From: Microcella alkaliphila
GTDB taxonomy: Bacteria; Actinomycetota; Actinomycetes; Actinomycetales; Microbacteriaceae
Assembly: GCF_004216855.1 (NCBI RefSeq)
Contig: NZ_SGXT01000014.1
Location: 62,001-126,000, forward strand
DNA: 64,000 bases
Direction: 5' to 3'
Positions 17,184 to 44,352 of this stretch are shown one piece after another (positions within the stretch are counted from its first letter, which is position 1; each line of letters opens with the position of its first letter). The position numbers and the translations under genes were made by a program. The notes beneath the pieces are model-generated. The model searched no databases, was not told the origin of the DNA, and was given only the letters and a program-made list of their open reading frames with translations.

Positions 17184-18599
17184 CTACGCGCGGGCTGCCG
17201 CCTGCGGCGACGCCGCCCGGTCGAGCGCCCGGCGCCGCCACATGCCACACGCGAGGAACCCGACCGCGAGGCCAAGCGATACGAGGCCGAAGGTCAGCGA
17301 CCCCCACGCGATGATGAGCGGCACCGAGAACGCCGTGATGAGGCCTCCACCGAGGAAGGGCTCGTAGCCGAGCTGCTTGTAGCCGTAGGCGTTGGCAGCG
17401 TTCGTGCGACGCTGGGGGTCGACCATGTCGGCCAGCACGAACCCCGTGGCGACGTTGCCCTGCGACTGCCCGAAATCGGCGATCGCGTGCTCGAACCAGT
17501 CGCGGCCGTGAATGCGCGGACCGAAGACGATCAGGGCGATGACGCTCCAGGCGACGGCGAGGATCGTGAACACGACCAGCACCGGCACGTTCGCTCCGAG
17601 GGTCGCGAGGCCCATGGTGCCGATCGCGGTCGCGATGAGAACGTCGAGGCTGATCGCCGAAATGCCATTGACGCTGCGCTTCTCAATGAAGTGGTCTTGC
17701 TTGATCGCGGTCGCGGCAAGCTGCACGAGGTAGCCACCGATCACCGCGAACGGGAAGAGCGGGAAACTGTCAAACACGTCCGACCCGAACAGGTTCGCAA
17801 CGAAGCGGAATGCCTCCAACAGGCCGATCGCGGCGGCGATGGCGAGCGCGATACACATGAGGGCGACCGTCACCGGGCCCATGCCACGGTTGTCGGGCTC
17901 TGCGTCGCGCTCACTCGGGTCGACGCCCGCGTTGTTCAGGTCGTGCGCCTCTTTACCCGTCAACGGGGTCGTGCGGGCGAGCTGAATTCTCGGGTTCTTC
18001 ACCGCCCAGCGCACGAGCAGCGAGCCGCCGACGATGCCCGTCACCATCGAGATGGTCGCAAGGCCCAGCCCCAGGTCGATAAGCTCGCTCGCGCCAGCCT
18101 CTGCGAGCAGCGGACCCATGCCCGCGATCGTGCCGTGGCCGCCCGCGAACGACAACTCGATGATTGATCCGGCGAGGTCGGTCACGCCGAAGAAGGGTGT
18201 CAAGATGAGCGCGACCGCAAGCGCCCCGAGCGCGAACTGGCCGAAAGACAGCGCGCTACCGAAGATCACGTGCGGCGCCGAGGCTCTCCAGATCTGCGCG
18301 GGCTTCGGCAGCTTCTTGCCGAGCATCACCGCCGCGAACACGACGTTGATCAAGAGCCCGGGCAGCGTTGCCCAGATCGCCAGCACCTCGCCCGGGATCG
18401 CTCCGTCAGTGTCCGTCCACACCCCGAGCAGCTGCGGCCCGATCAGCAGAATCACGAAGCCCGCGATCACCGACGTCGGGATGAACAGGGACGCGAACAG
18501 CGGAACGTAGCGTCTGACGACGGTCGCCAGCAACAGCACGATGCCGAGCACCACGATCGAGAAGCCGGCCCACTGCGCGTCGCTCAGGTCGAAGCTCAT
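17184..18599 (-). CDS. Sodium/glutamate symporter family protein (GltS/ESS)
   Basis: A 471-residue membrane carrier with two inverted halves of hydrophobic segments. The first half contains LSFAGGHGTIAGMGP (about 147-161), the family's substrate-loop signature. The second half has the corresponding region near AIADFGQSQGNVATGFVLADM (split by a short gap). ESS carriers import glutamate with sodium. It is larger than E. coli GltS (401), with an extended charged central loop (about 205-235, rich in Asp and Glu). It is transcribed away from the sulfur operon across a shared 167-bp promoter region, so the true substrate could be a sulfur-containing acid; this is inference. Confidence 0.82.
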   Translation of the reverse strand: MSFDLSDAQWAGFSIVVLGIVLLLATVVRRYVPLFASLFIPTSVIAGFVILLIGPQLLGVWTDTDGAIPGEVLAIWATLPGLLINVVFAAVMLGKKLPKPAQIWRASAPHVIFGSALSFGQFALGALAVALILTPFFGVTDLAGSIIELSFAGGHGTIAGMGPLLAEAGASELIDLGLGLATISMVTGIVGGSLLVRWAVKNPRIQLARTTPLTGKEAHDLNNAGVDPSERDAEPDNRGMGPVTVALMCIALAIAAAIGLLEAFRFVANLFGSDVFDSFPLFPFAVIGGYLVQLAATAIKQDHFIEKRSVNGISAISLDVLIATAIGTMGLATLGANVPVLVVFTILAVAWSVIALIVFGPRIHGRDWFEHAIADFGQSQGNVATGFVLADMVDPQRRTNAANAYGYKQLGYEPFLGGGLITAFSVPLIIAWGSLTFGLVSLGLAVGFLACGMWRRRALDRAASPQAAARA

Positions 18600-18634
18600 G
18601 GCCTCTAGTCAATCAAACCTTCATGTTGCCCTCC

Positions 18635-18726
18635 GTGACGTTCAGTCACCGCACGCTACGGCCCATGAACCGCCGTTTCCACCCGTGACATCGCCGCTTG
18701 GGGAATCGATTCCGGCCTGCCATAAC
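18635..18726 (+). promoter_or_regulatory. Divergent promoter region of the sulfur operon, with two palindromes
   Basis: A plausible promoter is TTGGGG (18698-18703), a 17-bp spacer, and CATAAC (18721-18726), about 40 bases before the first gene. A perfect 12-bp palindrome, GGAATCGATTCC (18702-18713), covers the spacer, and GTGAC-N5-GTCAC lies at 18635-18649 nearer gltS. Both are candidate binding sites for a regulator of the operon and gltS. No riboswitch-like fold was recognized. Confidence 0.45.
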
Positions 18727-18766
18727 TGACGGACACAGCCACCGCTTCACCCCGAAAGGAACCATC

Positions 18767-19768
18767 ATGTCCACCCCAGACACACCACAGCAGAGCGACC
18801 TCAGAGCGACGCTCGACGAGCGCTCAGCTGGCCGTCGCCGATTCGGCTTCATTGCCGGCGGACTTGCCGCGGCAGGACTCCTCGCCGCGGGAGTCGTGTT
18901 CGCGGCGTCGGCCCTCGGTGGAAACACCGCCGGAGCCGGCGAAGCAGCAACGCCCGCTGACGCGCCCAGCGAGCCCCTCTCGGTGCGCATCGCCACGAGC
19001 CAAGACTCCGACTTCCAGACGGCGATCGCGCAGGTCGCCCGCGAGAAGGGTCTGATCGTCGAGTGGGTGAACCTCTCGGACTGGGTGCTGCCCAACACCG
19101 AGCTGGCGGCCGGCTCGGTTGACGCGAACGCCTTCCAACACATTCTGTACCTCAGCAACTTCAACGTGCAGAACGAGGAAAACCTCACGCCGGTCTTCTC
19201 GACCGTCATCACACAGTGGGGAATCTTCTCGGCCACGCTCGACAGCCTCGACGAGCTGGAAGCCGGGGCACGCATCGCGATTCCCGACGACCCGTCGAAC
19301 GGCGGTCGTGCCCTGTTCATCCTCGAGGCCGCCGGTCTTCTTGAAATCGCCGATGACTCGGGAGAGTTCCCGACGCTCGACGACGTCACGAGCAACCCGC
19401 TGAACCTCGAGCTCGTGGCCATTCAGGCGACGACGATCCCGCAGCAGTTTGACGACCCGAGCCTGTCGGCCGTCGTCGTCGGAACCGCGTACTTCGACCC
19501 GTCGCAGAACATCACGAGCGACGACGCGCTCTACCTCGACAACTCGCTCGACGAGGCGAACTTGCCGTACATCAACGTGATCGCCACGCGTGACGAGAAC
19601 AAGGATGACCCGGCCTGGGAGATCCTCCGCGACGCGTACGCCGATCCGCGGGTCGCCGAGGCGCTACAGATCGAGAGTGCCGGGGCAACGACGCTCGTCC
19701 AGGTGTCCACAGAAACCCTGCGCTCGAAGCTCGCGGACCTCGAAGAGCTCGCCCGCGCGAACCTGTAA
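18767..19768 (+). CDS. MetQ/NlpA-family ABC substrate-binding protein (non-lipoprotein form)
   Basis: A 333-residue binding protein of the methionine-type ABC family. ATG 18767 has GAAAGGAA upstream. Residues 23-28 are basic with a twin-arginine-like start (GRRRFGFIAGG), followed by a hydrophobic stretch (about 29-52). No lipobox cysteine is present, and the whole protein lacks cysteine, so it is either membrane-anchored by its N-terminus or exported by Tat/Sec. The mature part has the NlpA features VNLSDWVLPNTELAAGSVDA and NAFQHILYL. MetQ proteins bind methionine. With monooxygenases downstream, this one may bind an organosulfur compound. Confidence 0.88.
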   Translation: MSTPDTPQQSDLRATLDERSAGRRRFGFIAGGLAAAGLLAAGVVFAASALGGNTAGAGEAATPADAPSEPLSVRIATSQDSDFQTAIAQVAREKGLIVEWVNLSDWVLPNTELAAGSVDANAFQHILYLSNFNVQNEENLTPVFSTVITQWGIFSATLDSLDELEAGARIAIPDDPSNGGRALFILEAAGLLEIADDSGEFPTLDDVTSNPLNLELVAIQATTIPQQFDDPSLSAVVVGTAYFDPSQNITSDDALYLDNSLDEANLPYINVIATRDENKDDPAWEILRDAYADPRVAEALQIESAGATTLVQVSTETLRSKLADLEELARANL

Positions 19769-19804
19769 CGGCAGGATCCGCGTACCGATGACGAGCATCC
19801 TCAT

Positions 19805-19839
19805 CCGTGGCCGGGAGACCTCAGGTCTCCCGGCCACGG
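19805..19839 (+). terminator. Perfect 16-bp hairpin between metQ-like and metN-like genes
   Basis: CCGTGGCCGGGAGACC (19805-19820), loop TCA, then GGTCTCCCGGCCACGG (19824-19839), with all 16 pairs matching. It begins 36 bases after the stop of the binding-protein gene. No T-run follows, so it may stabilize the upstream mRNA or attenuate the rest of the operon. It argues for a metN start after the hairpin. Confidence 0.75.
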
Positions 19840-19859
19840 CCACCGTGAAGGCGCCTCCC

Positions 19860-20888
19860 GTGACCACAGCAATCGAATTCCGCGACGTGTCGAAAACCTT
19901 CGTGACCCGTCGTACGTCGTTCTCCGCACTGACGAATGTGTCGCTGAGCATTCCCCGCGGCGACATCTTCGGAATCGTGGGCTACTCGGGAGCCGGCAAG
20001 TCCACCCTTCTGCGCACCGTCAACGCCCTCGAACGTCCCACCTCGGGAAGCGTGTTCGTGAACGGCCACGAGATCTCTGCCCTGCGCGGCCGCGCGCTCT
20101 ACCAGGCCCGCCAGCGCATCGGAATGATCTTCCAGCAGTTCAACCTCCTACAGTCCCGCACCGTCTTCGCGAACATCGCGTACCCGCTCGCGCTCGCCGG
20201 CGTCGCCAAACCCGAGGTCGTCGACCGCGTGGAGGAACTGCTCGAGTTCGTCGGTCTCTCGGACAAAGCTTTCGCCTATCCGTCGCGCCTGTCTGGCGGC
20301 CAGAAGCAGCGGGTCGGAATCGCCCGCGCACTGGCAAATCGGCCGGACGTTCTCATCTCCGATGAAGCGACGAGCGCTCTCGACCCCGACACCACCGCGG
20401 AGGTGCTCGAGCTCTTGAAGCGAACGAACGCCGAATACGGCATCACCATCGCGCTCGTCACCCACGAGATCGACGTCGTGCGGTCCATCGCCGACCGCGT
20501 CGCCGTCATGGAACGCGGTGAAGTTGTGGAGCATGGAACGGCGTATCGCGTCTTCTCCCGGCCCGAGCATCCGACGACGCGCCGGTTCGTCTCGTCCGTG
20601 CTTCAACACGTGCCGAGTGACGAAACCCTCGACCGGATACGCCGCACCCACTCCGGCCGTCTCGTGCAGATTGCCATTGACAACCCCGACGCGAGCGACC
20701 CCTACCTCTCACGCATCTCACGCGAGCACGGCGTCGACGCAACTGTTGTGTTCGGCGGAGTCAGTGAGATCGCGGCGAAACTGTTCGGAAGCCTGATCGT
20801 CGAGCTTTCGGGCGACGACCGTGCCGTGGATGCAGCGATTCGGGACCTCGCGCGCACGGTGTCCGTGACGGAGGTGCCGCATGGATGA
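19860..20888 (+). CDS. MetN-type ABC transporter ATP-binding protein
   Basis: A 342-residue ATPase, the family's usual length when started at GTG 19860 (AAGG eight bases upstream). Walker A is GYSGAGKST (41-49), the Q-loop sits in IFQQFNLL, the signature is LSGGQKQR and Walker B is DVLISDEATSALD. The C-terminal 90 residues form the NIL/ACT-like domain that senses methionine in MetN. It powers import with the neighbouring permease and binding protein. The in-frame ATG at 19788 would translate through the preceding hairpin and is less likely. It overlaps the permease gene by eight bases. Confidence 0.93.
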   Translation: MTTAIEFRDVSKTFVTRRTSFSALTNVSLSIPRGDIFGIVGYSGAGKSTLLRTVNALERPTSGSVFVNGHEISALRGRALYQARQRIGMIFQQFNLLQSRTVFANIAYPLALAGVAKPEVVDRVEELLEFVGLSDKAFAYPSRLSGGQKQRVGIARALANRPDVLISDEATSALDPDTTAEVLELLKRTNAEYGITIALVTHEIDVVRSIADRVAVMERGEVVEHGTAYRVFSRPEHPTTRRFVSSVLQHVPSDETLDRIRRTHSGRLVQIAIDNPDASDPYLSRISREHGVDATVVFGGVSEIAAKLFGSLIVELSGDDRAVDAAIRDLARTVSVTEVPHG

Positions 20889-21546
20889 GGCCTACTTCAC
20901 CGCACTTATCCCCCGCATCTGGCAGGCGCTCGCCGAGACCGGGTTGATGGTCAGTGTGTCCTTCCTGCTGGCTGGAATCCTCGGCGTCGGGCTGGGCCTG
21001 CTCCTCTACGCGTCGAGGCCTGGCAACCTGCTGGAGAATCGGGTCGTGTTCGGCGTCCTGAATGCCGTCATCAACATCATCCGACCGGTGCCGTTCCTGA
21101 TCGTGGCGGTGTCGATCATCCCGTTCACCCGACTCATCGTGGGAACAAGCATCGGGCCGCTCGCAGCGACCGTGCCGCTCGTTCTCGTCGCCAGTGTGGC
21201 GATCGCGCGCATCTCGGAGTCGAATCTCGTTGCGGTCGATCCGGGCGCGGTCGAAGCGGGGGCGGCCATGGGTGCAAGCCCCGCGCGGGTGCTCTTCACC
21301 ATCGTCATTCCCGAGGCGCTTGGCCCACTCGTGCTCGGGCTGACCTATATCTTCGTCGCGCTCGTCGATGCGACCGCCGTTGCGGGCGTCGTTGGAGGCG
21401 GCGGTCTGGGACACCTCGCCATCACCTACGGCTATCAGCGTTTCGACTGGTTCGTCGTCGGGGTCATCGTGCTCATCCTGATCGTGCTCGTGCAGTCGGC
21501 GCAGTTGCTCGGAAATTGGATCTCGCGCCGGGTGATGCACGCATGA
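20881..21546 (+). CDS. MetI-type ABC transporter permease
   Basis: A 221-residue inner-membrane permease with five predicted membrane segments. The EAA coupling motif is EAGAAMGASPARVLF (about 124-138), which docks onto the ATPase. Family stretches RPVPFLIVAVSIIPFTRLIVG and VGGGGLGHLAITYGYQRFD (split here) match MetI. It starts inside the metN-like gene and ends in an ATGA overlap with the first monooxygenase, so transport and catabolism are translationally coupled. Confidence 0.93.
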   Translation: MDEAYFTALIPRIWQALAETGLMVSVSFLLAGILGVGLGLLLYASRPGNLLENRVVFGVLNAVINIIRPVPFLIVAVSIIPFTRLIVGTSIGPLAATVPLVLVASVAIARISESNLVAVDPGAVEAGAAMGASPARVLFTIVIPEALGPLVLGLTYIFVALVDATAVAGVVGGGGLGHLAITYGYQRFDWFVVGVIVLILIVLVQSAQLLGNWISRRVMHA

Positions 21547-22694
21547 CCAGCACCACGACCACCGACCTGGCGGCGACACTCGCGGCACTGCGCGACGGAC
21601 AGGCCGAACGCGAACGCGAACGCCGCCTTCTCCACCACGAAGTTCGGGCGCTCGCCGATGCAGGGTTCGGCAGTCTCCGTGTACCCACCGAGTTCGGCGG
21701 CGCGGGGTCCAGCCTTCGCCAGGTGATCGCGCACCAGATCGACATCGCTCGTGCCGACGCTAGCCTCGGGCACCTGTGGCGGGGGCACATCGCCTTCGTC
21801 GAGAAGCTTCGGTATCGCGGCGTCGACGCCGCCCGCTGGTACCCGCGCCTCGTCGCGGGTGATGTGATCGGCAACGCCCAGTCCGAGCGCCATGACACGG
21901 CACGGCTCGATACGGTGCTCACCCGACAGGGCTCGACCCTCACCCTGACGGGAACGAAGTACTACACGACGGGGAGCATCTACGCCGACTGGATTCACCT
22001 TGCGGCTCTCGACGGTGATGAACGCGTCGCGGTGACCGTCGCCACAGCCCAAGACGGCGTCGAGTCTGTCGACGACTGGGACGGTTTCGGTCAGTTGTTG
22101 ACAGGCAGCGGGACGACCCGCTTCGCCAACGCCGACGTTGACCACGCCGAGGTGAATCGGGAAGACGACGACGCGGCACTCTGGCCGCTTCTCGGCAGCG
22201 TGTTTCAGCTCTCACTGCTGGCGACGATCGCGGGGATCGCTCAACGCGCGCACGATGACCTCGTCGCGTACGTCGTGCCCCGTCGCCGAACCTTCGGCTT
22301 CGCCGGCGAGACCCTCCCGCGGGAAGACCCACTCGTGCAGCACGTGGTGGGTGAGGTGAGCGGCGCCGCCAGCGCCGCGCGGCGCCTCGTGCTGTCGGCC
22401 GTCGGTGACCTCGACGAGATCATCGATGCGGGATACGACCGTGACGGGCTCCAAGAGCTGCAGTGGGACGTCTACCGTCTGCAACGCGTCGTTCCCGACA
22501 TTGTCTTGGATGCGACAACGCGGCTCTTCGAAGTGGGCGGGGCCTCCGCGGTCAGCGTGCGGCACGCCCTCGACCGGCACTGGCGAAACGTGCGCACCAT
22601 CGCGTCGCACAATCCGGTGGCGCAGCGAACCCGGGCAATCGGGCAGTGGGAACTGACGGGCACCCGCCCCGACTGGAAGACACCCGGCCGATGA
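21543..22694 (+). CDS. DszC/SfnC-like flavin-dependent monooxygenase (acyl-CoA dehydrogenase fold), paralog 1
   Basis: A 383-residue protein with the acyl-CoA dehydrogenase fold but the features of reduced-flavin monooxygenases such as DszC and SfnC. It has LTGTKYYTTGSIYADW (about 138-153), DDWDGFGQLLTGSGTT (about 178-193) and the C-terminal DRHWRNVRTIASHNP. DszC oxidizes a thiophene sulfur to the sulfone, and SfnC acts in dimethylsulfone use. It needs FMNH2 from a separate reductase, for which 26688-27323 is the candidate. Four-base overlaps join it to the permease and the aldo/keto reductase. A second copy lies two genes on. The exact substrate is unknown. Confidence 0.85.
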   Translation: MTSTTTTDLAATLAALRDGQAERERERRLLHHEVRALADAGFGSLRVPTEFGGAGSSLRQVIAHQIDIARADASLGHLWRGHIAFVEKLRYRGVDAARWYPRLVAGDVIGNAQSERHDTARLDTVLTRQGSTLTLTGTKYYTTGSIYADWIHLAALDGDERVAVTVATAQDGVESVDDWDGFGQLLTGSGTTRFANADVDHAEVNREDDDAALWPLLGSVFQLSLLATIAGIAQRAHDDLVAYVVPRRRTFGFAGETLPREDPLVQHVVGEVSGAASAARRLVLSAVGDLDEIIDAGYDRDGLQELQWDVYRLQRVVPDIVLDATTRLFEVGGASAVSVRHALDRHWRNVRTIASHNPVAQRTRAIGQWELTGTRPDWKTPGR

Positions 22695-23701
22695 GCACAG
22701 TGCCCATGGTCGCCCTCGGCGATGGCCTCATCACCTCCGCGCTCGGATTCGGATGTATGTCGCTGTCGGGCACCTACGGCCCGGCAGACGACGAGGAATC
22801 GGAACACGTTCTCGACGCGGCGATCGATGCGGGCGTGCGCCTCATCGACACGGCGGATGTGTACGGAGCCGGCCACAACGAATTGCTCGTCGGGCGCACC
22901 GTGCGCAGGCGCCACCACGAGGTCGAGCTGGCGACGAAGTTCGGTTTCGCGCCGCCCGGCTCCGTCGACGAGCGACGATTCATCGGAGACCCGGAGTACG
23001 TCGCCACTGCGGCGCGCGCGAGCCTCGGGCGACTCGGCGTCGATCACATCGACCTGTACTACTACCACCGGCTTGACCCCACGGTGCCGATTGAGGACAC
23101 GATCGGCGCCATGGCCGAGCTAGTGCGACAGGGGCTCGTGCGACACCTTGGGGTTAGTGAGGTCACGGGCGAAGAGCTGCGCCGAGCGCACACCGTGCAT
23201 CCCATCGCCGCCGTACAGAGCGAGTGGTCGCTGATCAGCCGAGATGTCGAGGCACAGGTGATCCCCACCGCCCGAGAGCTCGGCGTCGGCTTCGTCGCCT
23301 ACGCACCGCTCGGTCGCGGACTCCTCGCGAACGCTGACGTCGACATTCCTGACGATGACCTACGACGAGCATTCCCGCGCTTCGATGACGACGCGCTACC
23401 CACCAACCAGGGCCTCGCGCGAACGGTGGCCGAGCTTGCCGCGCGACTGTCGGTCACTCCGAGTCAACTCGCACTGGCCTGGGTGCGCGAGCGCGCGCGA
23501 GAGCTCGCGATTCCCGTCACGCCGATCCCGGGCACGCGCCGAAGCCGCCGGCTGCGAGAGAATCTGGACAGCCTCACGGTCGCGATTCCGCCCACCGTGC
23601 GCGCGAGCCTCGACGCCCTGGCGGAGCGATCGCTGGGCGATCGCGCGCGCGATGCCTCGGCCATTTCGCAGGGCCGCGAGCGGGTCGGCGGTCACCCATG
23701 A
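22691..23701 (+). CDS. Aldo/keto reductase
   Basis: A 336-residue AKR with the (beta/alpha)8 fold. The catalytic tetrad is visible: Asp in LIDTADVYG (about 49-57, Asp then Tyr), Lys in ELATKFG and His in YYYHRLDP. NADPH-binding residues lie near ITPIPGTRR-type sequence (VTPIPGTRRSRRLREN, about 277-292). It resembles the YajO/pyridoxal-reductase-like AKR13 group. Sandwiched by ATGA overlaps between two DszC-like genes, it probably reduces an aldehyde or ketone released by the monooxygenases, or acts on an imported precursor. That role is inferred from context. Confidence 0.9.
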   Translation: MSTVPMVALGDGLITSALGFGCMSLSGTYGPADDEESEHVLDAAIDAGVRLIDTADVYGAGHNELLVGRTVRRRHHEVELATKFGFAPPGSVDERRFIGDPEYVATAARASLGRLGVDHIDLYYYHRLDPTVPIEDTIGAMAELVRQGLVRHLGVSEVTGEELRRAHTVHPIAAVQSEWSLISRDVEAQVIPTARELGVGFVAYAPLGRGLLANADVDIPDDDLRRAFPRFDDDALPTNQGLARTVAELAARLSVTPSQLALAWVRERARELAIPVTPIPGTRRSRRLRENLDSLTVAIPPTVRASLDALAERSLGDRARDASAISQGRERVGGHP

Positions 23702-24870
23702 GCGTCGTATCACCCGCTCTGCGCGACGTGTTCGATGCGATCGGACGAGACGCCGCGCGCCGGGATCGGGATCGCATCCTGCCCTTCGCGGAGGTCGACG
23801 CGCTGCGCGACGCCGGCTTCACACGCCTCACCCTGCCGAGAGAGTACGGCGGTCGCGGAGCGAGCAGAAGTGAGCTGTTCGAGACACTCGCCGAGCTGGC
23901 GCGCAGCGACTCGAATCTCGCACAGCTGTTCCGTTCCCACTTTTCGTTTATCGACCGCACCCTGCTGATGCCCGACGGCGCGACCAAGACCGAGCGACTT
24001 CGTCTCGTCGCCGACGGGGCGATCCACGGCAATGCCACCTTCGACCGTGGCGGGCCGGATGCCGAGAAGACGACGCTTAGCGATACCGCGGCTGGCCCGC
24101 GACTGTCGGGGCGCAAGTTCTACAGCACGGGCACACTCTTCGCCGATCTCGTTTCGGTGCTGGCCGAACGTGACGGGCAGCCGGTGAGCGTGCTCGTGCC
24201 GACCACGCGATCGGGCGTCGAGCGTGTCGACGACTGGAACGGCTTCGGTCAACGCGTGACGGGCAGCGGAACGACTGTGTTCACCGACGTGGTCGTCGAG
24301 CCAGAGCGGGTCAGCGGGGTGAGGGAGGCGCCCACCGACGGGCCGGCGTTCGTTCAACTCGTTCTTCTCGCAACGCTGGTCGGAATCGGGCGAGCCGTCG
24401 TTGACGACGCCGTTGCCTACGTCACCGCTCGCACCCGCACCTACAGTCACGCGAGCGCCCCGCGCGCCGCCGACGATCCGCTCGTGCAGGAGGTGATCGG
24501 CGAGCTATCGGCGCTCGCCTACCGCGCGGACGCGGCGCTCACCCTCGCGGCGAGCGTCCTCGAGACGAGCGCATCATCGTTGTCGAGTGACTCAGGCGAG
24601 GCCGACCGCGACGCGGCCATCTGCGCCTCTGAGACGCATGTCACGAAGGCGCAACTCGTGATCGTCCCCGCGGTTCTCGATGCTGCAAGCCGCCTGTTCG
24701 AGGTGGGAGGGGCATCCGCCCTCGATCGTGACCGTGGCCTCGATCGACACTGGCGGAACGCGCGCACACTCGCCTCCCACAATCCCGCACGCTACAAGGC
24801 GCGCGCTCTCGGCGCTCACCTCCTCACCGGATCCGATCTGGTCGGATGGTGGACGAGCGGCGATGCGTAG
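23698..24870 (+). CDS. DszC/SfnC-like flavin-dependent monooxygenase, paralog 2
   Basis: A 390-residue paralog of the 21543 gene with the same landmarks: LSGRKFYSTGTLFADL (about 135-150), DDWNGFGQRVTGSGTT and DRHWRNARTLASHNP near the end. The N-terminal half is clearly diverged and has its own SHFSFIDRTLLMPDG segment. Two such genes in one operon suggest successive oxidation steps, different chain lengths of substrate, or a hetero-oligomer. It overlaps the aldo/keto reductase by four bases and is followed after 51 bases by the LLM monooxygenase. Confidence 0.85.
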   Translation: MSVVSPALRDVFDAIGRDAARRDRDRILPFAEVDALRDAGFTRLTLPREYGGRGASRSELFETLAELARSDSNLAQLFRSHFSFIDRTLLMPDGATKTERLRLVADGAIHGNATFDRGGPDAEKTTLSDTAAGPRLSGRKFYSTGTLFADLVSVLAERDGQPVSVLVPTTRSGVERVDDWNGFGQRVTGSGTTVFTDVVVEPERVSGVREAPTDGPAFVQLVLLATLVGIGRAVVDDAVAYVTARTRTYSHASAPRAADDPLVQEVIGELSALAYRADAALTLAASVLETSASSLSSDSGEADRDAAICASETHVTKAQLVIVPAVLDAASRLFEVGGASALDRDRGLDRHWRNARTLASHNPARYKARALGAHLLTGSDLVGWWTSGDA

Positions 24871-24921
24871 CCGCGGCTCGTCGACGAAGGCCCTACCCGA
24901 CACCCTCACCGGAAAGCAGTC

Positions 24922-26292
24922 ATGACCGAACGCAAGAAGCTCATCCTCAACCTCTTCGAGATGAATACGGTGAGCCACATCACCCACGGGCTGTGGGCAC
25001 TGCCGGGCAACAATCGCGAACGGTACGCCGACATTGGGTATTGGACTGAATTGGCTGAGCTTCTGGAAGACGGCGGGTTCGACGGTGTGTTCCTAGCCGA
25101 CGTGATCGGCGCGTACGACGTTTTCGGCGGCGACTTCAGTGCGGCGGCAGAGGAGGGCCTCCAGCTGCCGTCAAACGACCCTCTTCTCGTCGTACCGGTG
25201 ATGGCCGCGGCGACTCGCCACCTCGGGTTCGGGGTCACCTTCGCCACGACCTACGAGCCCCCGTTCCCCTTTGCCCGCCGGATGTCGACTCTCGACCACC
25301 TCACGAATGGGCGAATCGGGTGGAACATCGTCACCTCATACCTGCCTAACGCGGCTCGCAACTTCGGCCTTCGCGACGAGATTCCGCACGACGAGCGGTA
25401 CGCGATCGCCCACGAATTCCTCGACGTCGTCTACAAGCTCTGGGAGGGTTCGTGGGACGACGACGCGATCGTCGCCGACCGCGATACCGGCGTATTCGCC
25501 GACCCCACGAAGGTTCGCTACATCAACCACGAGGGGCCGCGCCACAGCGTCGCCGGGCCGCACCTCGCTGCACCGTCCCGACAGCGCACTCCTGTTCTCT
25601 ATCAGGCGACCGGATCGCCCGCCGGCGTCGCGTTTGCGGGAAAGCATGCCGAGGTGGTCTTCACTGGCGGCCGCACCGCCGATGACTTCCGACGCACGGC
25701 TGGCGCCATTCGCGAGGCCGCGCACACTGAAGGACGGGGCGAGGACGCCGTTCGATTCCTCGTTCAGGCGGGCGTCGTCGTTGGCCGGACGGAAGAAGAG
25801 GCGTCGGACAAATGGCGGCTCTACCAGGAACGGACGAGTGTGCGAGGCATACTGGCGCACGCGAGTTCGCCGATCGACCTCACCGCCTACCCACGCGAGT
25901 GGACGGTGGAGCGTGCCGCGGCAGCCGCGGGTGTGCCGTCGACCACCATCCCGTACGCGAACCCGAAGAGCACGGTCGGCGAGGCGCTCGACGCCCTCCG
26001 CGGTGGCCGCGAAGGGCGCTTCTTTGTGGCAGGAACGCCGTCCGTCGTCGCGGACGAGATCGAGCGCTGGCTCGATGAGGACGGCGTCGACGGAATCAAC
26101 CTCCGGCAGTACCACTCCTTCGATACGGCGCGAGATTTCGCCGAGCTCGTGGTGCCCGAACTGAGAAAGCGTGGGCGGATCCTCGAGCGACCCGCTGAGC
26201 CGCGCAGCCTTCGCGACGTGTTGTTCGGCGCTGGGGACCGCATTCCCGAGGCGCATACTGCCGCGCGGTACCGAGGCGGTGCGAACCTCTGA
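24922..26292 (+). CDS. DszA/NtaA-family LLM flavin-dependent monooxygenase
   Basis: A 456-residue bacterial-luciferase-like enzyme of the NtaA/SnaA/DszA/DmoA group. The length and N-terminus (LILNLFEMNTVSHITHGLW) match that group and are longer than single-step alkanesulfonate monooxygenases. Conserved parts include DGVFLADVIGAYDVFGGD, RRMSTLDHLTNGRIGWNIV, YQATGSPAG and GRTEEEA. DszA cleaves the C-S bond of a sulfone and DmoA cleaves dimethylsulfide, so it fits as the final desulfurization step. It needs FMNH2 from an external reductase. It is the last gene of the operon, and the convergent regulator ends 17 bases beyond. Confidence 0.88.
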   Translation: MTERKKLILNLFEMNTVSHITHGLWALPGNNRERYADIGYWTELAELLEDGGFDGVFLADVIGAYDVFGGDFSAAAEEGLQLPSNDPLLVVPVMAAATRHLGFGVTFATTYEPPFPFARRMSTLDHLTNGRIGWNIVTSYLPNAARNFGLRDEIPHDERYAIAHEFLDVVYKLWEGSWDDDAIVADRDTGVFADPTKVRYINHEGPRHSVAGPHLAAPSRQRTPVLYQATGSPAGVAFAGKHAEVVFTGGRTADDFRRTAGAIREAAHTEGRGEDAVRFLVQAGVVVGRTEEEASDKWRLYQERTSVRGILAHASSPIDLTAYPREWTVERAAAAAGVPSTTIPYANPKSTVGEALDALRGGREGRFFVAGTPSVVADEIERWLDEDGVDGINLRQYHSFDTARDFAELVVPELRKRGRILERPAEPRSLRDVLFGAGDRIPEAHTAARYRGGANL

Positions 26293-26308
26293 CATTCGCG
26301 TGTCGCCG

Positions 26309-26713
26309 TTAGGCCGGACGCGTCGTCACCTCGAGCGAAGGGTGAGAGACGAGAACAAAGCCGGCGCCACGAACAGAACGGATGGCATCGCCCCCGGGCC
26401 CGAGCTTCTCGCGAATGCGGCGAATCACCATGTCGAGGGCACGGGCACCGGAAGGCGGATCATCACCCCAAATTGTGGTGGTCAGTTCTGACCGTCGGAC
26501 GACCCGACCAGGCTCCGCGGCGAGCAAAGCCAGCGCTTCGACCTCACGAACCGACAACGGGATCACCGTGTGGCCCCGCACGACGGCGTGTCGACTGAGA
26601 TCGAGTCGAACGGGCGTCGGCGGCTCGACCGCCGACAACGTGATCGTGGCCGCTGAGTCGAAGCCCTCGCGCACGCGGGGTTGCGTACTACGCCCAGGCG
26701 GGCCGAGAGACAT
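26309..26713 (-). CDS. Stand-alone OmpR/PhoB-type winged-helix DNA-binding protein
   Basis: A 134-residue protein from ATG 26713, which has GAGG nine bases upstream and overlaps the end of the FMN reductase by 26 bases; GTG 26674 is an alternative. Residues about 32-125 are a complete Trans_reg_C winged helix: LSVREVEALALLAAEPGRVV, ELTTTIWGDD, RALDMVIRRIREKLG and SVRGAGFVLV. No receiver domain exists, and no histidine kinase lies nearby, so it is not a standard response regulator. Translational linkage to the reductase and position facing the sulfur operon make it a candidate local regulator. Confidence 0.72.
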   Translation of the reverse strand: MSLGPPGRSTQPRVREGFDSAATITLSAVEPPTPVRLDLSRHAVVRGHTVIPLSVREVEALALLAAEPGRVVRRSELTTTIWGDDPPSGARALDMVIRRIREKLGPGGDAIRSVRGAGFVLVSHPSLEVTTRPA

Positions 26714-27323
26714 CGCGGGAAACCTCGAGTCCGAGTTGCGAGCGCAAGAGGGGCGTTGCTCGGCGGACGGCCATCTCGATGCGTTCATCGAGTTCGTGTG
26801 AGCTGACCCGATAGTCGGTGAAGTCGGCCTCGCTCGCGTAGATGCCCAGGGGAAGAGTGAGCGCCTGAAAGAACCCGAATAGCGGGCGCATCTGGTGTTC
26901 GACGAGCAGAGCGTGACGTTCGCTTCCTCCCGTGGCGGTGAGGACGACCGGCGTGTCCACGAGCGCGTACTGAGCGACGTGATCAAAGAAAAGCTTGAAC
27001 AAGCCGGTAAAAGTAGCGCGGTAGGCCGGTGAGCCGACGATGAGAATGTCGGCTGCCTCAACGGTGTCTAGGGCAGCCCGAGCATTTACTCCGAGTCCGT
27101 CGCGGTATGGGTGCTCGCCGAGCTCTCCGAGTAGTGGACCAAGCGCGATGACCTCAACCTCACCGCCGACGGTGTCGGCCAAGACCCTCGCCACGTGGTC
27201 GACCAGCGCTGTCGTGCGCGACGGGCTGGTCGGGCTGCCGCTCACGCCAACGATGCGAGGGGCTCGGGCCGCGGCGGGGTTGGCGGTGGACGCGATCACG
27301 GTGTGCGGTGAGCTGATAGTCAT
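26688..27323 (-). CDS. NADPH-dependent FMN reductase (SsuE/MsuE-like)
   Basis: A 211-residue flavodoxin-fold reductase. The FMN phosphate loop is GVSGSPTSPSRTTALV (about 26-41), and GSPAYRATFTGLFKLFFDH (about 97-115) is the conserved active-site stretch of the SsuE/MsuE/CE1759 group. These enzymes supply free FMNH2 to two-component monooxygenases. The adjacent operon encodes three such monooxygenases but no reductase, so this is the likely partner even though it is on the opposite strand. It is the first gene of a two-gene unit with the winged-helix protein. Confidence 0.9.
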   Translation of the reverse strand: MTISSPHTVIASTANPAAARAPRIVGVSGSPTSPSRTTALVDHVARVLADTVGGEVEVIALGPLLGELGEHPYRDGLGVNARAALDTVEAADILIVGSPAYRATFTGLFKLFFDHVAQYALVDTPVVLTATGGSERHALLVEHQMRPLFGFFQALTLPLGIYASEADFTDYRVSSHELDERIEMAVRRATPLLRSQLGLEVSRDVSRPAWA

Positions 27324-27408
27324 GAGACCAGTTTTTGGGGACTCCGCTCGCTACCGCCACCGGGCCTGTCACACCGCGACCAGATACGACACGTCGTGAC
27401 ACGAGCCG

Positions 27409-28506
27409 TTACCGAGCGTCATGCGGCGTGACACTCTGAGCGAGCTGGGCGCCGGCCGCGTGCAGCCAGCGGGCCGGGTCGGCCATCGCCGCCTGCGCGG
27501 CGCCGGCCAGGTCGGTCAGCGACACCGCGGCGGCGAAGCCGCGCGGCTCGGCCGCGATCGCCCCCGCGACGAGGGCGCGGGGCGTGCCGACCGTGTCGGC
27601 GCGGCGCGCCACCTCGTGGGCGACCTTGCCCGCCGCCGTCTGGCCGTCGAAGCGGCCCTCGCCCGTGATGACCAGGTCGGCGCCGGCGAGCGCCGCACCG
27701 AGCCCGATCGCATCGGCGACGGCAACGGCACCCGACTGCAGGGATGCGCCCCAGGCGACCAGGGCGAACCCGGTGCCGCCGGCGGCCCCCGCACCCGGCG
27801 TGGCCGGGTCGGCGCCGAGCAGCCCGGCAAATCGTGCGAGCGCCGCGTCGACCCACGACACGTCGACGGGGGCGAGCCCCTTCTGCGGGCCGAACACCGC
27901 AGCCGCGCCGCGCTCGCCCGTGAGCGGCGAGTCGACGTCGGTCAGCGCGACGACCCCGCCAGGTGGCAGCGCCCGCAGCTCAGAGGGGTCAACGCCCTCG
28001 ATGAGAGAAACGTCGGCGGGGCCGCGGGGGTGACCGCCTTCGACGGGTGCGAAGCGGGCGCCGAGCGCGGCGAGCATCCCGGCGCCGCCGTCGGTGGACG
28101 CGCTTCCGCCGATCGCGACCAGCATGCGCGTGACGCCGTGGTCGAGCGCGGCGGCGATCGCCTCGCCAACGCCGAGCGTGTGGGCGGTGCGCGGCGCGAG
28201 CTCGTCGAGCAGGGTGATGCCCGACGTAAGCGCGAGCTCGACGACGCCCGTGCCGTCGGGCAGCAGCAACCAGTGCGTGTCGACGGGCCGGTCGTCGGGG
28301 CCGGTGACCGTCACGGGCACGCGCCTCGCCCCGGGCGTTGCGGCCGCGATCGCGTCGAGGGTGCCCTCACCGCCGTCCGCCATCGGCGCCGCGACCACGG
28401 TGTCGTCGGCGCGCACGCTGCGCCAGCCGGCGGCGAGCGCCGCGGCCACGTCCGCCGCGTCGATCGTGCCCTTGAACGAGTCGGGCGCGATGACGATGCG
28501 GGTCAT
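27409..28506 (-). CDS. Glycerate kinase, GarK/GlxK type
   Basis: A 365-residue type I glycerate kinase producing phosphoglycerate from glycerate and ATP. Conserved parts are IVIAPDSFKGTIDA (4-17), MADGGEGTLDA, the GGSASTDGGAGMLAALG loop and the C-terminal DLVITGEGRFDGQTAAGKV. Glycerate is an end product of several uronic-acid and aldarate routes, which fits its place beside the pectin genes. It follows the GH42 gene on the same strand, but a strong hairpin lies between, so it may have its own promoter. Confidence 0.92.
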   Translation of the reverse strand: MTRIVIAPDSFKGTIDAADVAAALAAGWRSVRADDTVVAAPMADGGEGTLDAIAAATPGARRVPVTVTGPDDRPVDTHWLLLPDGTGVVELALTSGITLLDELAPRTAHTLGVGEAIAAALDHGVTRMLVAIGGSASTDGGAGMLAALGARFAPVEGGHPRGPADVSLIEGVDPSELRALPPGGVVALTDVDSPLTGERGAAAVFGPQKGLAPVDVSWVDAALARFAGLLGADPATPGAGAAGGTGFALVAWGASLQSGAVAVADAIGLGAALAGADLVITGEGRFDGQTAAGKVAHEVARRADTVGTPRALVAGAIAAEPRGFAAAVSLTDLAGAAQAAMADPARWLHAAGAQLAQSVTPHDAR

Positions 28507-39922: not shown

Positions 39923-42900
39923 CTACCGGACGCGCACGGTGACCGGTCGGCTCTCGGTGACCCCCGCCGCGTTCACGAACTCGGCGACGTATGTGTACGT
40001 GCCGGGCGCGCGATCCTCCGCGACGAACGAGACGCTCTGCGCGAGCGGCGTCTGCGCGACAAGCTCCTGCTCGTCGACGACATCGCCGTTCTCGAGCAGC
40101 CGGTACGACGTCGCGTTGGTTCCCCACCACAGGTTCGTCGTCACCGTGTACGTCGAGGCCTTGCCGTTGTGGTTCGTGTGACTGACGACGGGCACGCCCG
40201 GCGCAGCGTCACGAACGACGACGGTGACCGAGGTGGTGGCCGTCACCCCCGCGGCGTTGATCAGCTCGCCCGTGAACACGTAGCGCCCGTTCGGCAATCC
40301 GCTGATGCGGGTCGACGCGAGCTGCGCGTTCGGCGAATTCGGCGTCAGCAGTTGCTGATCGATGAGCTCGCCATCCTGATAGAGGCGATACACGCTGCCG
40401 TTCTCGCCCCACCACAGATTCATCATCACGGCGAAGTGACCGTCAGCGAGGCCGTAGTCCCAGCCGCTCGTCGTCGACAGGTTTCCGCGCGCCGGGGCGA
40501 CCGTCGCGCCCTCGTCGGCGAAGACCGTGATCGTCGCCGACACGGTCGACGTGAGCCCCTGGTTGTTCACCGCAGTGACCACCAGCTCGCGCTCGCCGAC
40601 GAGGCCGTCCAGCGCAATGCTCGCATCGGCAGCGACACGCTCGCCGTCGAAGGTCACCTCGACGGTCCGCACGCCCGACTCCGGGTCGGTGGCGACCACG
40701 TCGAGATCGAGCGTCGCCGACTCCGCGAGCAGAGCATCCTGCACGCCCGTGATGACCGGCGCCGACTCATCGGCCTCCGCCGTCGGCCCGCCCACAATCG
40801 CGACCGGCGGCATCGCCGGGCGCTCCATGTCGTGCCCGATGAAGAAGCTCGGGTGCGGCGGCTGGTTGTAGCTGACGTTCTGCCAGGCCACCGCCAGACG
40901 GTACTGCGAGTCGTGCATGAGGGTGTGGATGCGCGTGTCGGTCACGTACGGCGTCGCGTAGATGCGCAGCTCGGTGCTGTCTTCATCGCGCCACACGATC
41001 TCTTCACGCCAGTCGCCGAACAGGTCGGCCTGGATCACCGGGGTGCCCTTCGTACCGTTGTTCGCGAACGTGCCCTCGGCGCGGAAGACCTCGTCAACCT
41101 GTTCGGTCTCCCAGTTCCACTTCGAGATGACGGGCACGCCGGTGCGGCTCGCGGCATCCCAGTCGTGGTCGACGATCTCGCGCAGGGTGTCCCCCGTCCA
41201 CCACGCGACGAAGTTCGCCGCCGGGATGGTGTTCGAGATGAGCGAGCCATCCGACGCGCGCAGCTGCCCGACCGTCGTGTTGAACGAGCCGTCGCCGCCG
41301 ATCGCCCAGCCCTCGGCTCCGGGGAACCGCGGGTCGATGTCGGCCGCGGCCGCGCGACCCGTGTCGCGGGTCGCCGGGATCGCCCAAATGATCTCGCCGG
41401 TCGCAGCGTCGCGCATCGTGGCGCCGCGGTTGCCCGACTCGCCCATGCTCTCGTGCGCACCGAAGACCTCGAGGCCCTCGCGGTCGGGAATCAGGTTGCC
41501 CACGTGCAGGGCATCACCGTGCCCGAGCCCCGTGCTGTAGAGCAGGGTGCCGTCGTGGTTGACCGTCGCCTGGCCGAAGATGATCTCGTCCCGGCCGTCG
41601 CCATCGACATCGGCGATCGACAGCTGGTGGTTGCCCTGGCCGTACAGCGCGGCAGCCCCCGGCGTCGTGTCCGAGTCGATCACCCAGCGCTCGACGAGCT
41701 GCTTGTCGACCACGTCGTAGGCGGCAAGCACCGTGCGCGTGTAGTAGCCGCGGCTGAAGATGACGCTGGGCGTCTCTCCGTCGAGGTACGCGGTTCCGGC
41801 AAGGAACCGGTCGACCCGGTTACCGTAGGTGTCACCCCACGAGCCGACGTTGCCGCGCGGCGGCGTGTAGTCGATCGTGTGCAGCGCGCCACCGGTCTCA
41901 CCGTCGAACAGGGTGAGGAACTCGGGGCCGCTCAGGATGTACCCACCGCTGTTGCGGAAGTCGGCGTCGGGGTTGCCGATGACGACACCCTGCCCGTCGA
42001 CGGTCGCGTCAGCGGTCTTCAGCACGAGTTCGGCCTTGCCGTCGCCGTCGTAGTCGAAGGCCTGCAGCATCGTGTAATGCGCACCGGCCCGGATGTTGCG
42101 GCCCATGTCGATGCGCCACAGCTGCTCGCCCTCCATCGTGTAGGCGTCGATGAGCACGTTGCCCGTGTACCCGCTCTGCGAGTTGTCGCGCTCGTTCGAC
42201 GGCGCCCACATGAGGATGAACTCGTACTTTCCGTCACCCGTCAGGTCGGCGACGGTGGCGTCACCGGCCGAGTACGTGAATTGCTGCCCGCCGGGCACCG
42301 TTCCGCCCTCAGGCTTGTTCAGCGGAATGGGGAAGTACGTCTCGTCCCACACCCCGAAGGCGTCCGTCTCCGTGACCTCGCGGTCGCCGCGGATGCTCGT
42401 GACGAGGTACGTGGAATCGGCCGCGCCGTCTGGGTCCAGCAGGTTCGTCGAGTCGGTGATCGGCGCATCCGTGATCTTCACGCCGTCTCGGTAGACGTGG
42501 AAGCCGAGATCAGGATCGTCGGTGCCGAGCAGTCGCCACGAGACGAGGACGCCCTCGTCCACGGGCAGGGCCGCCGGCGAGCGATCGAGGTACTCGGTCT
42601 GGCGCTGAAGCACCGTTGCCGCCTCTGACTGCAGCACCGCGGACGCCTCGGACGATCCGCCCTCGTTGACCGCGATCACGCGGTAGAAGAACGACAGCGT
42701 CGTCAAGATGTCGGTGTCGGAATACGAGGCGGATGCACTCTCACCGATCGTGAGGAACGGCGCGTCCGCGCGCGGCGCGCGCTGCACGAGGTAGTAGCGC
42801 GCACCCTCGACCGGCGCCCACGACAGCTCGACGAGGTTCTTGTCGATGTCGGTGACGGCCAGCCCACTGGGGGCGGCGGGCGCATCCGTATCGGGGTCGA

Positions 42901-44221
42901 TGAGGCCGACGAGCAGTTCCTCCGACGGAACCGACTGGCGGCCGTCCTCCGACAGCGCGACGACGGCGTAGCGGTAGTCGCGGCCAAGGCGCGCGGTCGA
43001 GTCGGTGAAGCTCGGCTCGGCCGTCTCGCCGAGCACCGTGGCGCGGGCGTCGCCCTCGCCGGTGCGCAGCACGCGGTACGTCACGTCGTCAGCGGCGTCC
43101 CAGCCGAGCGTGACGCTCGAGGGGTCAGTGCTGAGGTCGATGCTCGTGACCGCGAGGCCCGTGGGGGCCAGCAGGGTCGGAATGATCGAGATGCCGTTGA
43201 AGCGTGACGAGTTGCCGCCGATGAGCACGTTGAGTTGACCGTCGGTCACCGTCACCGAGCCGTGGTCGACTTCGGTCACGAAGCCGGAGGCCGCGTTGCC
43301 GTTGCTGCTCTGCTGGCCCTCGAAGGCGAAGGTCGTCTGACTGGAGGCGATCGTGTCGCCGCTCCAAGTGCGCACGTCGTAGGTGCCGTTCGGCACGTCA
43401 ACGAGAAGCTCGAAAGCGGCACCCGAGATGATGAAGTCGCGGATCATGTCGCCCAGCTCGCCGGGTTCGGCGCCGCGGAGGCGGTCGTTCAGGCCCGAGA
43501 CGTTGGCGAAGCCAAATCCGCGCTCGGCGGAGTACGTCATCGAGCGATCAAGCGCCGTCCAGCCGGGCGCCACCGGGGCACCCACCGGGCCCGCGTCGAG
43601 CAGCAGCCCGCCGAACTCGCCGTCGTCCTCGACGGGCGGAGCCGTCGGGGCGAATTCGAGGCCGTTCAGGCGAATCGAGTTGCCCGAGATGCGCACGATG
43701 ACGTGCCCGCCCTCCGCCACGATCGAGCCCCGGTTGACCTCGGCCACGAGGCCGGATGAAACCTGTCCGCCACCGAGGTCGACGCCGTCGATGGCGAAGC
43801 TCGTGTTACTCGAGGCGATGGTGTCACCGCTCCAGGTGCGCAGGTCGTAGGAACCGTCGGGAAGGTCAATGCGAACCTCGAAGGGCGCGCCCGAAATGAC
43901 GAAGTCACCGGTCATGGCACCGAGTTCGCCCGGCTGTACACCGCGATTGCGGTCGTCGAGGCCGCTGGTCGTCACGAATCCATAGCCGCGCTCGGCGGTG
44001 TACGCCATCGTGCGATCGAGCGGCTGGAAGCCGGGTGCGACGGCTTGATTACTGGGGCCGGCATCGAGCCGGATGGTCGGAAGCTCGGGATCGGTTGCCG
44101 ACGCGGGAGCCGCGATGGCGAGGGAGGCGGCGACCACGACCGCGGTCGCGAGACCGGCTGTTCGCCGGAATCGGGCGCGAAGGGCGGTGCCACGCGGGGG
44201 GCGGGAAACGGGGGAATCCAC
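39923..44221 (-). CDS. Secreted rhamnogalacturonan lyase (PL11-type) with carbohydrate-binding modules
   Basis: A 1,432-residue secreted enzyme. GTG 44221 has AAGGAG seven bases upstream, followed by a signal peptide ending APASA (about residue 43). Two malectin-like modules (about 48-190 and 203-348, each opening LDAGP and containing DLRTWSGDTIASS or DVRTWSGDTIASS) come next, then two FnIII domains (350-543). The PL11 beta-propeller region (about 550-1125) has AGDATVADLTGDGKYEFILM, FDYDGDGKAELVLKTAD, VDGDGRDEIIFG and GDWREEIVWRDED. An Ig-like domain follows, then two tandem 80-residue repeats with NLWWGxN (about 1257-1336, 1350-1432). It cleaves the rhamnogalacturonan-I backbone by beta-elimination. 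No sortase signal is seen. Confidence 0.9.
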   Translation of the reverse strand: MDSPVSRPPRGTALRARFRRTAGLATAVVVAASLAIAAPASATDPELPTIRLDAGPSNQAVAPGFQPLDRTMAYTAERGYGFVTTSGLDDRNRGVQPGELGAMTGDFVISGAPFEVRIDLPDGSYDLRTWSGDTIASSNTSFAIDGVDLGGGQVSSGLVAEVNRGSIVAEGGHVIVRISGNSIRLNGLEFAPTAPPVEDDGEFGGLLLDAGPVGAPVAPGWTALDRSMTYSAERGFGFANVSGLNDRLRGAEPGELGDMIRDFIISGAAFELLVDVPNGTYDVRTWSGDTIASSQTTFAFEGQQSSNGNAASGFVTEVDHGSVTVTDGQLNVLIGGNSSRFNGISIIPTLLAPTGLAVTSIDLSTDPSSVTLGWDAADDVTYRVLRTGEGDARATVLGETAEPSFTDSTARLGRDYRYAVVALSEDGRQSVPSEELLVGLIDPDTDAPAAPSGLAVTDIDKNLVELSWAPVEGARYYLVQRAPRADAPFLTIGESASASYSDTDILTTLSFFYRVIAVNEGGSSEASAVLQSEAATVLQRQTEYLDRSPAALPVDEGVLVSWRLLGTDDPDLGFHVYRDGVKITDAPITDSTNLLDPDGAADSTYLVTSIRGDREVTETDAFGVWDETYFPIPLNKPEGGTVPGGQQFTYSAGDATVADLTGDGKYEFILMWAPSNERDNSQSGYTGNVLIDAYTMEGEQLWRIDMGRNIRAGAHYTMLQAFDYDGDGKAELVLKTADATVDGQGVVIGNPDADFRNSGGYILSGPEFLTLFDGETGGALHTIDYTPPRGNVGSWGDTYGNRVDRFLAGTAYLDGETPSVIFSRGYYTRTVLAAYDVVDKQLVERWVIDSDTTPGAAALYGQGNHQLSIADVDGDGRDEIIFGQATVNHDGTLLYSTGLGHGDALHVGNLIPDREGLEVFGAHESMGESGNRGATMRDAATGEIIWAIPATRDTGRAAAADIDPRFPGAEGWAIGGDGSFNTTVGQLRASDGSLISNTIPAANFVAWWTGDTLREIVDHDWDAASRTGVPVISKWNWETEQVDEVFRAEGTFANNGTKGTPVIQADLFGDWREEIVWRDEDSTELRIYATPYVTDTRIHTLMHDSQYRLAVAWQNVSYNQPPHPSFFIGHDMERPAMPPVAIVGGPTAEADESAPVITGVQDALLAESATLDLDVVATDPESGVRTVEVTFDGERVAADASIALDGLVGERELVVTAVNNQGLTSTVSATITVFADEGATVAPARGNLSTTSGWDYGLADGHFAVMMNLWWGENGSVYRLYQDGELIDQQLLTPNSPNAQLASTRISGLPNGRYVFTGELINAAGVTATTSVTVVVRDAAPGVPVVSHTNHNGKASTYTVTTNLWWGTNATSYRLLENGDVVDEQELVAQTPLAQSVSFVAEDRAPGTYTYVAEFVNAAGVTESRPVTVRVR

Positions 44222-44333
44222 GAAAAAACTCCTTGAGACGTCGTTGACTAAGGACGGCGTGGCGGGATCCGCGTTCCCCGTCGACACTCTGCCGCGCCAG
44301 CCGCCGTCGATGTCGGGCCGGAACCGTGACAGA

Positions 44334-44352
44334 GTGGGAAAACGCATTCCAC
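44334..44352 (-). promoter_or_regulatory. LacI-type operator upstream of the PL11 gene
   Basis: GTGGGAAAACGCATTCCAC, 113 bases before the lyase start, shares the half-site GTGGGAA/TTCCAC with the other operators. The 333-bp gap 44222-44554 is a divergent promoter with this site near the lyase side and another near the oxidoreductase side. Confidence 0.72.

Follow-up and report, generated by a model that had tools for sequence, protein, structure and literature searches.

What a nine-gene island of Microcella alkaliphila imports, and in which form it would release the sulfur, is the question raised by positions 18,767 to 27,323 of the DNA analysed here. The window, i.e., the whole stretch of 64,000 nucleotides (C3 62001-126000), belongs to a 2.69-Mb genome (G000) that is 100% complete. 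The island combines a methionine-type ABC importer (MetQ, MetN, MetI) with two acyl-CoA-dehydrogenase-fold (group D) monooxygenases, designated SfnBa and SfnBb, a luciferase-like (group C) monooxygenase (LLM), an aldo/keto reductase (AKR), a flavin mononucleotide (FMN) reductase, and a DNA-binding protein. On balance, an accessory module is favoured by which an organosulfur compound would be imported, oxygenated at sulfur, and then cleaved at a C-S bond to give an aldehyde and a reduced sulfur fragment. A more far-reaching form of this reading, offered tentatively and with slightly less than even confidence, is a salvage pathway with more than one origin. Here two S-oxygenases of the DszC fold and a DmoA-like enzyme, fed by a retuned methionine-type importer, would cut an imported thioether amino-acid derivative to an aldehyde and reduced sulfur, thereby supplying actinobacteria unable to reduce sulfate or sulfite. 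If this is true, bacteria without sulfate or sulfite reduction would have an oxygen-dependent way of obtaining sulfur in reduced form, and widespread relatives of alkane and nitrilotriacetate monooxygenases would be given a physiological role.

The coupled operon and its enzyme families

All nine genes are present where the preliminary description had put them, and domain calls and gene junctions bear out its view of one coupled operon with a facing reductase/DNA-binding pair (Table 1). The operon MetQ-MetN-MetI-SfnBa-AKR-SfnBb-LLM occupies 18767-26292 of the plus strand; MetN follows MetQ at +19 bases, MetI, SfnBa, AKR, and SfnBb follow at -8, -4, -4, and -4 bases, respectively, and the LLM gene follows at +51 bases, the overlapping genes being the five central ones. 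The msuE and winged-helix genes (26309-27323) face the operon, with the start of the latter overlapping the end of the former. The start of SfnBa is the ATG at 21543 (corrected), and MetN may instead start at a later GTG, at 19860. The expectation of an organosulfur module that depends on FMNH2 and brings a reductase and an importer of its own is supported by the families and by the MsuE-type reductase, which exceeds its equivalog cut-off and would provide the FMNH2.

Table 1. Features of the island and of its surroundings in the window, with profile scores
Feature	Coordinates	Strand	Evidence
MetQ/NlpA-family substrate-binding protein, putative N-terminal membrane anchor, no lipobox Cys seen	18767..19768	+	PF03180 190 bits (Lipoprotein_9); NCBIfam MetQ 141 bits, cut-off 228.9
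MetN-type ABC ATPase, C-terminal NIL domain	19788..20888	+	TIGR02314 344 bits, cut-off 499.7; PF09383 NIL above cut-off; ABC_tran
MetI-type permease	20881..21546	+	NF008049 163 bits, cut-off 212; BPD_transp_1
SfnBa, acyl-CoA-dehydrogenase-fold (group D) FMN-dependent monooxygenase	21543..22694	+	TIGR04022 SfnB 243 bits, cut-off 430.9; Acyl-CoA_dh_2
Aldo/keto reductase (AKR)	22691..23701	+	PF00248 226 bits (Aldo_ket_red); nearest PDB entry perakine reductase
SfnBb, second group D monooxygenase	23698..24870	+	TIGR04022 279 bits, cut-off 430.9; Acyl-CoA_dh_2
LLM (group C) FMN-dependent monooxygenase, NtaA/DmoA family	24922..26292	+	TIGR03860 456 bits, cut-off 279.7; Bac_luciferase
Stand-alone OmpR/PhoB-type winged-helix DNA-binding protein	26309..26713	-	PF00486 62.6 bits (Trans_reg_C)
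MsuE-type FMN reductase	26688..27323	-	TIGR03566 232.6 bits, cut-off 212.5; FMN_red
Glt_symporter-family gene (flank)	17184-18599	-	
Glycerate kinase gene (flank)	27409-28506	-	
Protein of 1474 residues, rhamnogalacturonan lyase family 11 domains	39923-44347		

For both SfnB proteins, which would oxygenate the sulfur, the best NCBIfam model is SfnB and the next is DszC. Either protein stays below the SfnB equivalog cut-off (Table 1) and below that of the DszC model NF043015 (124 and 151 bits; cut-off 850). The nearest PDB relatives of SfnBa are TdsC, 8cda, MsuC, and DszC, and its residues H89, N118, W186, and H363 (numbers 7 higher than when counted from the ATG) correspond in the alignment to H, N, W, and H of DszC, which we take to be the working residues of that enzyme. 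The two proteins share about 40% identity and fall into separate clades of the SfnB tree.

The LLM had been described as DszA/NtaA-like. Its membership in the NtaA family stands, but DszA is not the nearest enzyme: among solved relatives LadA (433 bits) and DmoA (372 bits) are the closest, scoring 2.1 and 1.8 times as high as DszA (205 bits), which is consequently rejected as the nearest relative. The Bacillus subtilis enzyme CmoJ, which we take to be YtnJ, is a distant relative only (178 bits). DmoA converts dimethyl sulfide (DMS) to methanethiol and formaldehyde, and the LLM is proposed to cleave a C-S bond in a DmoA/CmoJ-like manner, giving an aldehyde and a sulfur fragment. That the enzymes act instead on a carbon or nitrogen compound by NtaA- or LadA-like chemistry, with no release of sulfur, is distinctly improbable; the LLM family does contain LadA, HcbA1, and the enzymes for nitrilotriacetate and ethylenediaminetetraacetate, and the genes of a sister MetQ clade are accompanied by those for a DAO oxidoreductase and an aminotransferase, but the island itself encodes an MsuE equivalog and SfnB/DszC-like enzymes, and relatives lie near ssuD, sulfonate-transporter, and TauD-family genes.

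The aldehyde would be reduced by the AKR, which probably serves for its disposal; AKR homologues of 52-60% identity adjoin an LLM or SfnB gene in four loci (L043, L082, L221, L225). The winged-helix protein, of the OmpR/PhoB type and 134 residues long, is without a receiver domain and is probably a regulator, which may control the operon; similar proteins (37-38%) adjoin the modules in L082 and L225. Neither promoter nor terminator was found by a scan of 18500-27500, shuffled sequences averaging 0.8 and 3.8. Rfam matches in the whole window numbered two, signal recognition particle RNA and tRNA, neither of them within the island, and no repeats were seen at its borders among the matches listed (20 of the 57 direct repeats, 25 of the 72 inverted repeats).

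Recurrence of the gene set and the changed importer pocket

As to whether the set recurs, a check suggested in the preliminary description, it is no isolated oddity. The seven-gene order is kept in G002, of the same genus, with protein identities of 93-100%, in L082, a metagenome-assembled genome (MAG) of the Microbacteriaceae, and in L225 (G458, another genus), where the LLM gene is cut by the end of the stretch. Since the operon DNA of L082 and L225 is about 78% identical, these two may represent one genus, and the seven-gene form is counted in at least two genera. The gene order is not a chance juxtaposition. A version without the AKR, MetQNI-SfnBa-SfnBb-LLM, occurs in G168, G112, G076, and G164 as well as in Microbacterium oleivorans (L066) and a Microbacterium MAG (L069), and in G003 and G005 the genes are arranged divergently, as MetQNI / LLM-SfnB. 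Among 80 named loci picked by LLM similarity, which are the best kept of a longer list and skewed to Pseudomonas, 24 have at least two SfnB genes, an LLM gene, and MetQ, MetI, and MetN within 6.5 kb: 3 from Actinomycetota, 19 from Pseudomonadota (Pseudomonas, Pantoea, Serratia), and 2 from Paenibacillus. By the same count, 25 of the 80 have zero SfnB, MetQ, MetI, or MetN. Around the LadA-like gene on pLW1071, neither SfnB nor MetQ is annotated within the 9.4 kb viewed, the gene table being incomplete. No consistent downstream gene that might point to the substrate emerged; SDR, GNAT plus LLMs, NUDIX, melibiase, RibD_C, and OsmC genes were seen across the loci. In G005 (L059 7442-11918), LLM and SfnB genes are directly followed by genes for a SufS-family cysteine desulfurase and SufU, which may tie the product to cysteine sulfur or may be chance neighbours.

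The importer is of the methionine type, as in the preliminary description, which considered a methionine derivative as a possible substrate. In MetQ of Neisseria meningitidis, R156, N213, and N238 grip the amino and carboxyl groups of the ligand and Y81, F98, H100, and Y103 enclose its thioether, and exchange of N238 for alanine weakens L-methionine binding by more than 10^5 (PMC6739813). The counterpart in Escherichia coli, N229A, behaves likewise (PMC12357092). Aligned with Y81, F98, H100, Y103, R156, N213, and N238, respectively, are W106, F123, H125, Y128, R181, G239, and N270 of the window MetQ (motif WFHYRGN). Five of the seven methionine-contacting residues are kept. MetQ, MetN, and MetI all score below their NCBIfam cut-offs, and MetN does carry the NIL domain (Table 1). 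Because the pocket departs from that of methionine-binding MetQ at two of the seven residues, methionine itself would be a poor guess as ligand. The changed MetQ, together with MetNI, would rather import a compound that probably combines a carboxylate with a thioether, sulfoxide, or sulfone group.

The motif WFH[YF]RGN is found in all 11 actinobacterial module MetQs aligned. Tryptophan at position 81 is present in 22 of the 24 full-set loci (3 with WFHYRGN, 19 with WFHFRYI; the 2 from Paenibacillus have V or I) and in none of the 30 best-scoring family MetQs used as controls, which, as top Pfam matches, are biased to the consensus and of which only short flanks were read. A further 38 MetQs from 34 loci, being a selection from the rest of the match lists, contained 5 with the tryptophan, in 4 loci; an SfnB gene is nearby in 4/4 of these and in 1/30 of the others (Fisher p 0.0001, uncorrected for kinship). 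That a plain importer of methionine or a derivative shares the operon by chance with unrelated monooxygenases is very unlikely in view of this association of tryptophan 81 with SfnB, of an order kept across genera, and of a set reassembled in another phylum, even though five of the seven contacts are retained. A pocket change repeatedly paired with S-oxygenases would make the substrate directly testable through ligand binding.

The trees indicate that the gene set was put together separately in Actinomycetota and Pseudomonadota. Tandem SfnB proteins of Pseudomonas, Pantoea, and Serratia form a 25-row group (SH-aLRT 99), and actinobacterial SfnBa and SfnBb lie in a different, 32-row group (SH-aLRT 99). 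For MetQ, whose tree omits the seven pocket columns, the pseudomonad module clade (22 rows, SH-aLRT 100) groups with canonical MetQs, and the actinobacterial module clade (16 rows, SH-aLRT 98) includes four P..I relatives and L196. Both are quick-search, midpoint-rooted trees of selected loci with several long-branch rows. With the SfnB groups and MetQ clades separated by lineage, one origin of the set for all phyla was rejected; because SfnB and MetQ of both phyla lie in separate clades, the tryptophan change, which both MetQ lineages show, and the linkage with two enzymes of group D and one of group C seem to have originated two or more times.

Several other features of the MetQ family emerged alongside. 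At its start (18767-18960) the window MetQ combines a cytosolic SDLR motif with a basic stretch and a hydrophobic segment; an SDLR-type start is seen in all 11 module MetQs and a lipobox cysteine in none. Because of this hydrophobic segment without lipobox cysteine, and of the similar start in all 11, module MetQs are probably held by a membrane helix. The sister clade with the pocket PFHWR[AG]I, in which MetQ is followed by an aminotransferase gene, or by DAO oxidoreductase and aminotransferase genes (L198 11256-12602, L197 11038-13280), may be another non-methionine MetNIQ type. A class SYHWQYG occurs in six loci of the window's family (L213-L218), four of them with an LLM of about 45% identity nearby and no SfnB found. 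A subfamily [YF]FNFRTN, with H100 changed to N and N213 to T, makes up 6 of the 30 family controls (L150, L157, L158, L161, L163, L170).

The putative sulfur product: sulfite or a reduced fragment

A profile search of G000 gave zero matches to PF01507 (phosphoadenosine/adenosine phosphosulfate, PAPS/APS, reductase) and to PF01077 (sulfite reductase), and none was found in the single-contig genome G002; as positive controls, PF01507 was found in 14/14 and PF01077 in 11/14 known genomes. Within the genus, 25 of 26 genomes are without PF01507 and 24 of 26 without PF01077, the two matches (G001, G015) being nitrite reductase NirB. A sulfite reductase hiding among the PF01077 matches was rejected for eight of the nine genomes with such a match (of 40 searched), where the protein is NirB (G001, G015, G046, G076, G112, G168, G248, G532); the ninth, G164, alone has a NirA/sulfite-reductase-family gene, located beside its PAPS reductases. 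Ordinary desulfurization ending in sulfite for assimilation conflicts with this result. Because neither reductase was found in G000 or G002 at the sensitivity of these searches, a pathway ending in sulfite should not supply assimilation in the host, and because the host lacks a detectable sulfite reductase, the useful sulfur fragment would most likely be a sulfenic acid or thiol, the kind of product made by CmoO/CmoJ and by DmoA.

The same two families were followed in the 11 genomes with MetQNI, LLM, and SfnB (G000, G002, G003, G005, G168, G112, G076, G164, G532, G533, G534, of which G532-G534 are without stated completeness). PF01507 is present in one of them, G164, and the PF01077 matches of G168, G112, G076, and G532 are NirB. 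Across the order sample, PF01507 occurs in 209/396 genomes, in 18/58 of those with an SfnBa match (Fisher p 0.00035), and in 2/15 of those whose match reaches 300 bits (p 0.0025); since close relatives enter these tests as separate genomes, the p values are too small. Across the order, absence of PAPS reductase is no more than suggestively linked to the module.

The ordinary sulfone route, in which SfnB would form a sulfone, the LLM would cleave this to a sulfonate or sulfinate, and the sulfite formed in the end would be used or discarded by genes elsewhere in the genome, is considered rather unlikely. It draws on Acinetobacter baylyi ADP1, where the group D enzymes Dms1-3, fed by MsuE, oxidise DMS to its sulfoxide and sulfone on a pathway to sulfite (PMC13352529). 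As in the island, group D monooxygenases act with MsuE-derived FMNH2, there on a thioether, and two of the group D genes have adjacent locus numbers; unlike in the island, sulfite arises through MsuD/SsuD in a host that reduces it, and the words MetQ, ABC transporter, and aldo are absent from the text (PMC13352529). Besides the missing reductases in G000 and G002, the sulfone route is opposed by the operon being without SsuD, MsuD, and DszB; the remaining genome was not searched for these three.

For the preferred reading, cleavage to an aldehyde with the sulfur kept reduced, the closest parallels come from B. subtilis. CmoO and CmoJ, the latter a homologue of YxeK and DszA, convert an S-alkylcysteine sulfoxide to an aldehyde and a sulfenic acid (PMC10863075), and YxeK yields oxaloacetate and N-acetylcysteine in the breakdown of S-(2-succino)cysteine (PMC9706529). 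In both, C-S cleavage by an NtaA-family enzyme leaves the sulfur reduced and releases a carbonyl compound, and the yxe system has its own ABC importer, as does the island. Unlike here, sulfoxidation is due to CmoO and not to SfnB, and N-acetylation/deacetylation genes take part. The 4S systems DszABC and TdsABC likewise pair a DszC-fold S-oxygenase with an NtaA-family C-S cleaving enzyme and a separate flavin reductase, whereas the island has no DszB-like protein among its nine genes, SfnB proteins far below the DszC cut-off, an LLM nearer to LadA and DmoA, and an importer. In Rhodococcus IGTS8 grown with dibenzothiophene, MetQ, MetN, and two nitrilotriacetate-monooxygenase proteins appear in a table of changed proteins, MetQ and MetN ahead of its downregulated heading (PMC8557817), and in Gordonia NB4-1Y a methionine ABC ATPase gene and two nitrilotriacetate monooxygenase genes are up on organic sulfur sources (PMC7661421). 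In the part available of PMC3868597, a link to MetQ was not found. Family names alone would be an unsafe basis for calling methionine transport or dibenzothiophene desulfurization.

A number of observations weigh against the preferred reading or its generality. The module carrier G164 has PAPS reductases and NirB in addition to its NirA/sulfite-reductase-family gene, which would suit the sulfone route. PF01507 is missing from 4/5 full-module genomes and from 183/391 others, which is not significant (p 0.19). No acetyltransferase or deacetylase of the CmoJ/YxeK pathway type is among the nine genes, the genome beyond not having been searched. In Komagataeibacter an operon encodes an SfnB-family protein, an LLM (58% identical), SsuD (above cut-off), an FAD oxidoreductase, an MFS transporter, and a flavin reductase, and on a Pantoea plasmid the annotated genes SfnB, SfnB, LLM, MetQ, MetN, MetI lie close to ssuD; the order SfnB-LLM-SsuD and the neighbouring ssuD fit a sulfonate/sulfite route in relatives. 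As to the pocket, an LLM is visible in only 2 of the 4 new tryptophan loci within the stretch fetched, and L196 (WFHFRGN) has neither SfnB nor LLM in its 19 kb. A strict rule joining tryptophan to SfnB is further challenged by L144 (WFHFRYL, no SfnB counted) and by L118 and L110, with two SfnB genes and a pocket that is canonical or YFHFRNC. Canonical pockets stand beside an LLM in Rhizobiales (L100, L113, L117, L136), Janthinobacterium (L109, L119), Trinickia (L118), Paenibacillus (L123), and L242.

While the enzyme families are known, no paper on the set was found in the open-licence PMC literature, in agreement with the earlier statement that no named pathway was known for the combination. 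What is new is that the pocket change recurs in association with SfnB, that the set was apparently assembled separately in each of two phyla, and that sulfite release would conflict with a missing sulfite reductase.

Genomic setting

The two genes flanking the island (Table 1) have homologues in G022 that match only 23 bases apart (1703338, 1703362), a junction resembling an empty site. Proteins of the SfnB type (E ≤ 1e-20 against SfnBb) are encoded by 5 of the 26 genomes of the genus, and two per genome are found only in the window's genome and G002. In the latter, the Glt_symporter-family gene adjoining the island (C1 2498941-2500140) appears to lack an internal stretch relative to the window. 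Farther downstream in the window, the gene for the protein with rhamnogalacturonan lyase family 11 domains lies near arabinofuranosidase and GH35 genes, which suggests pectin use.

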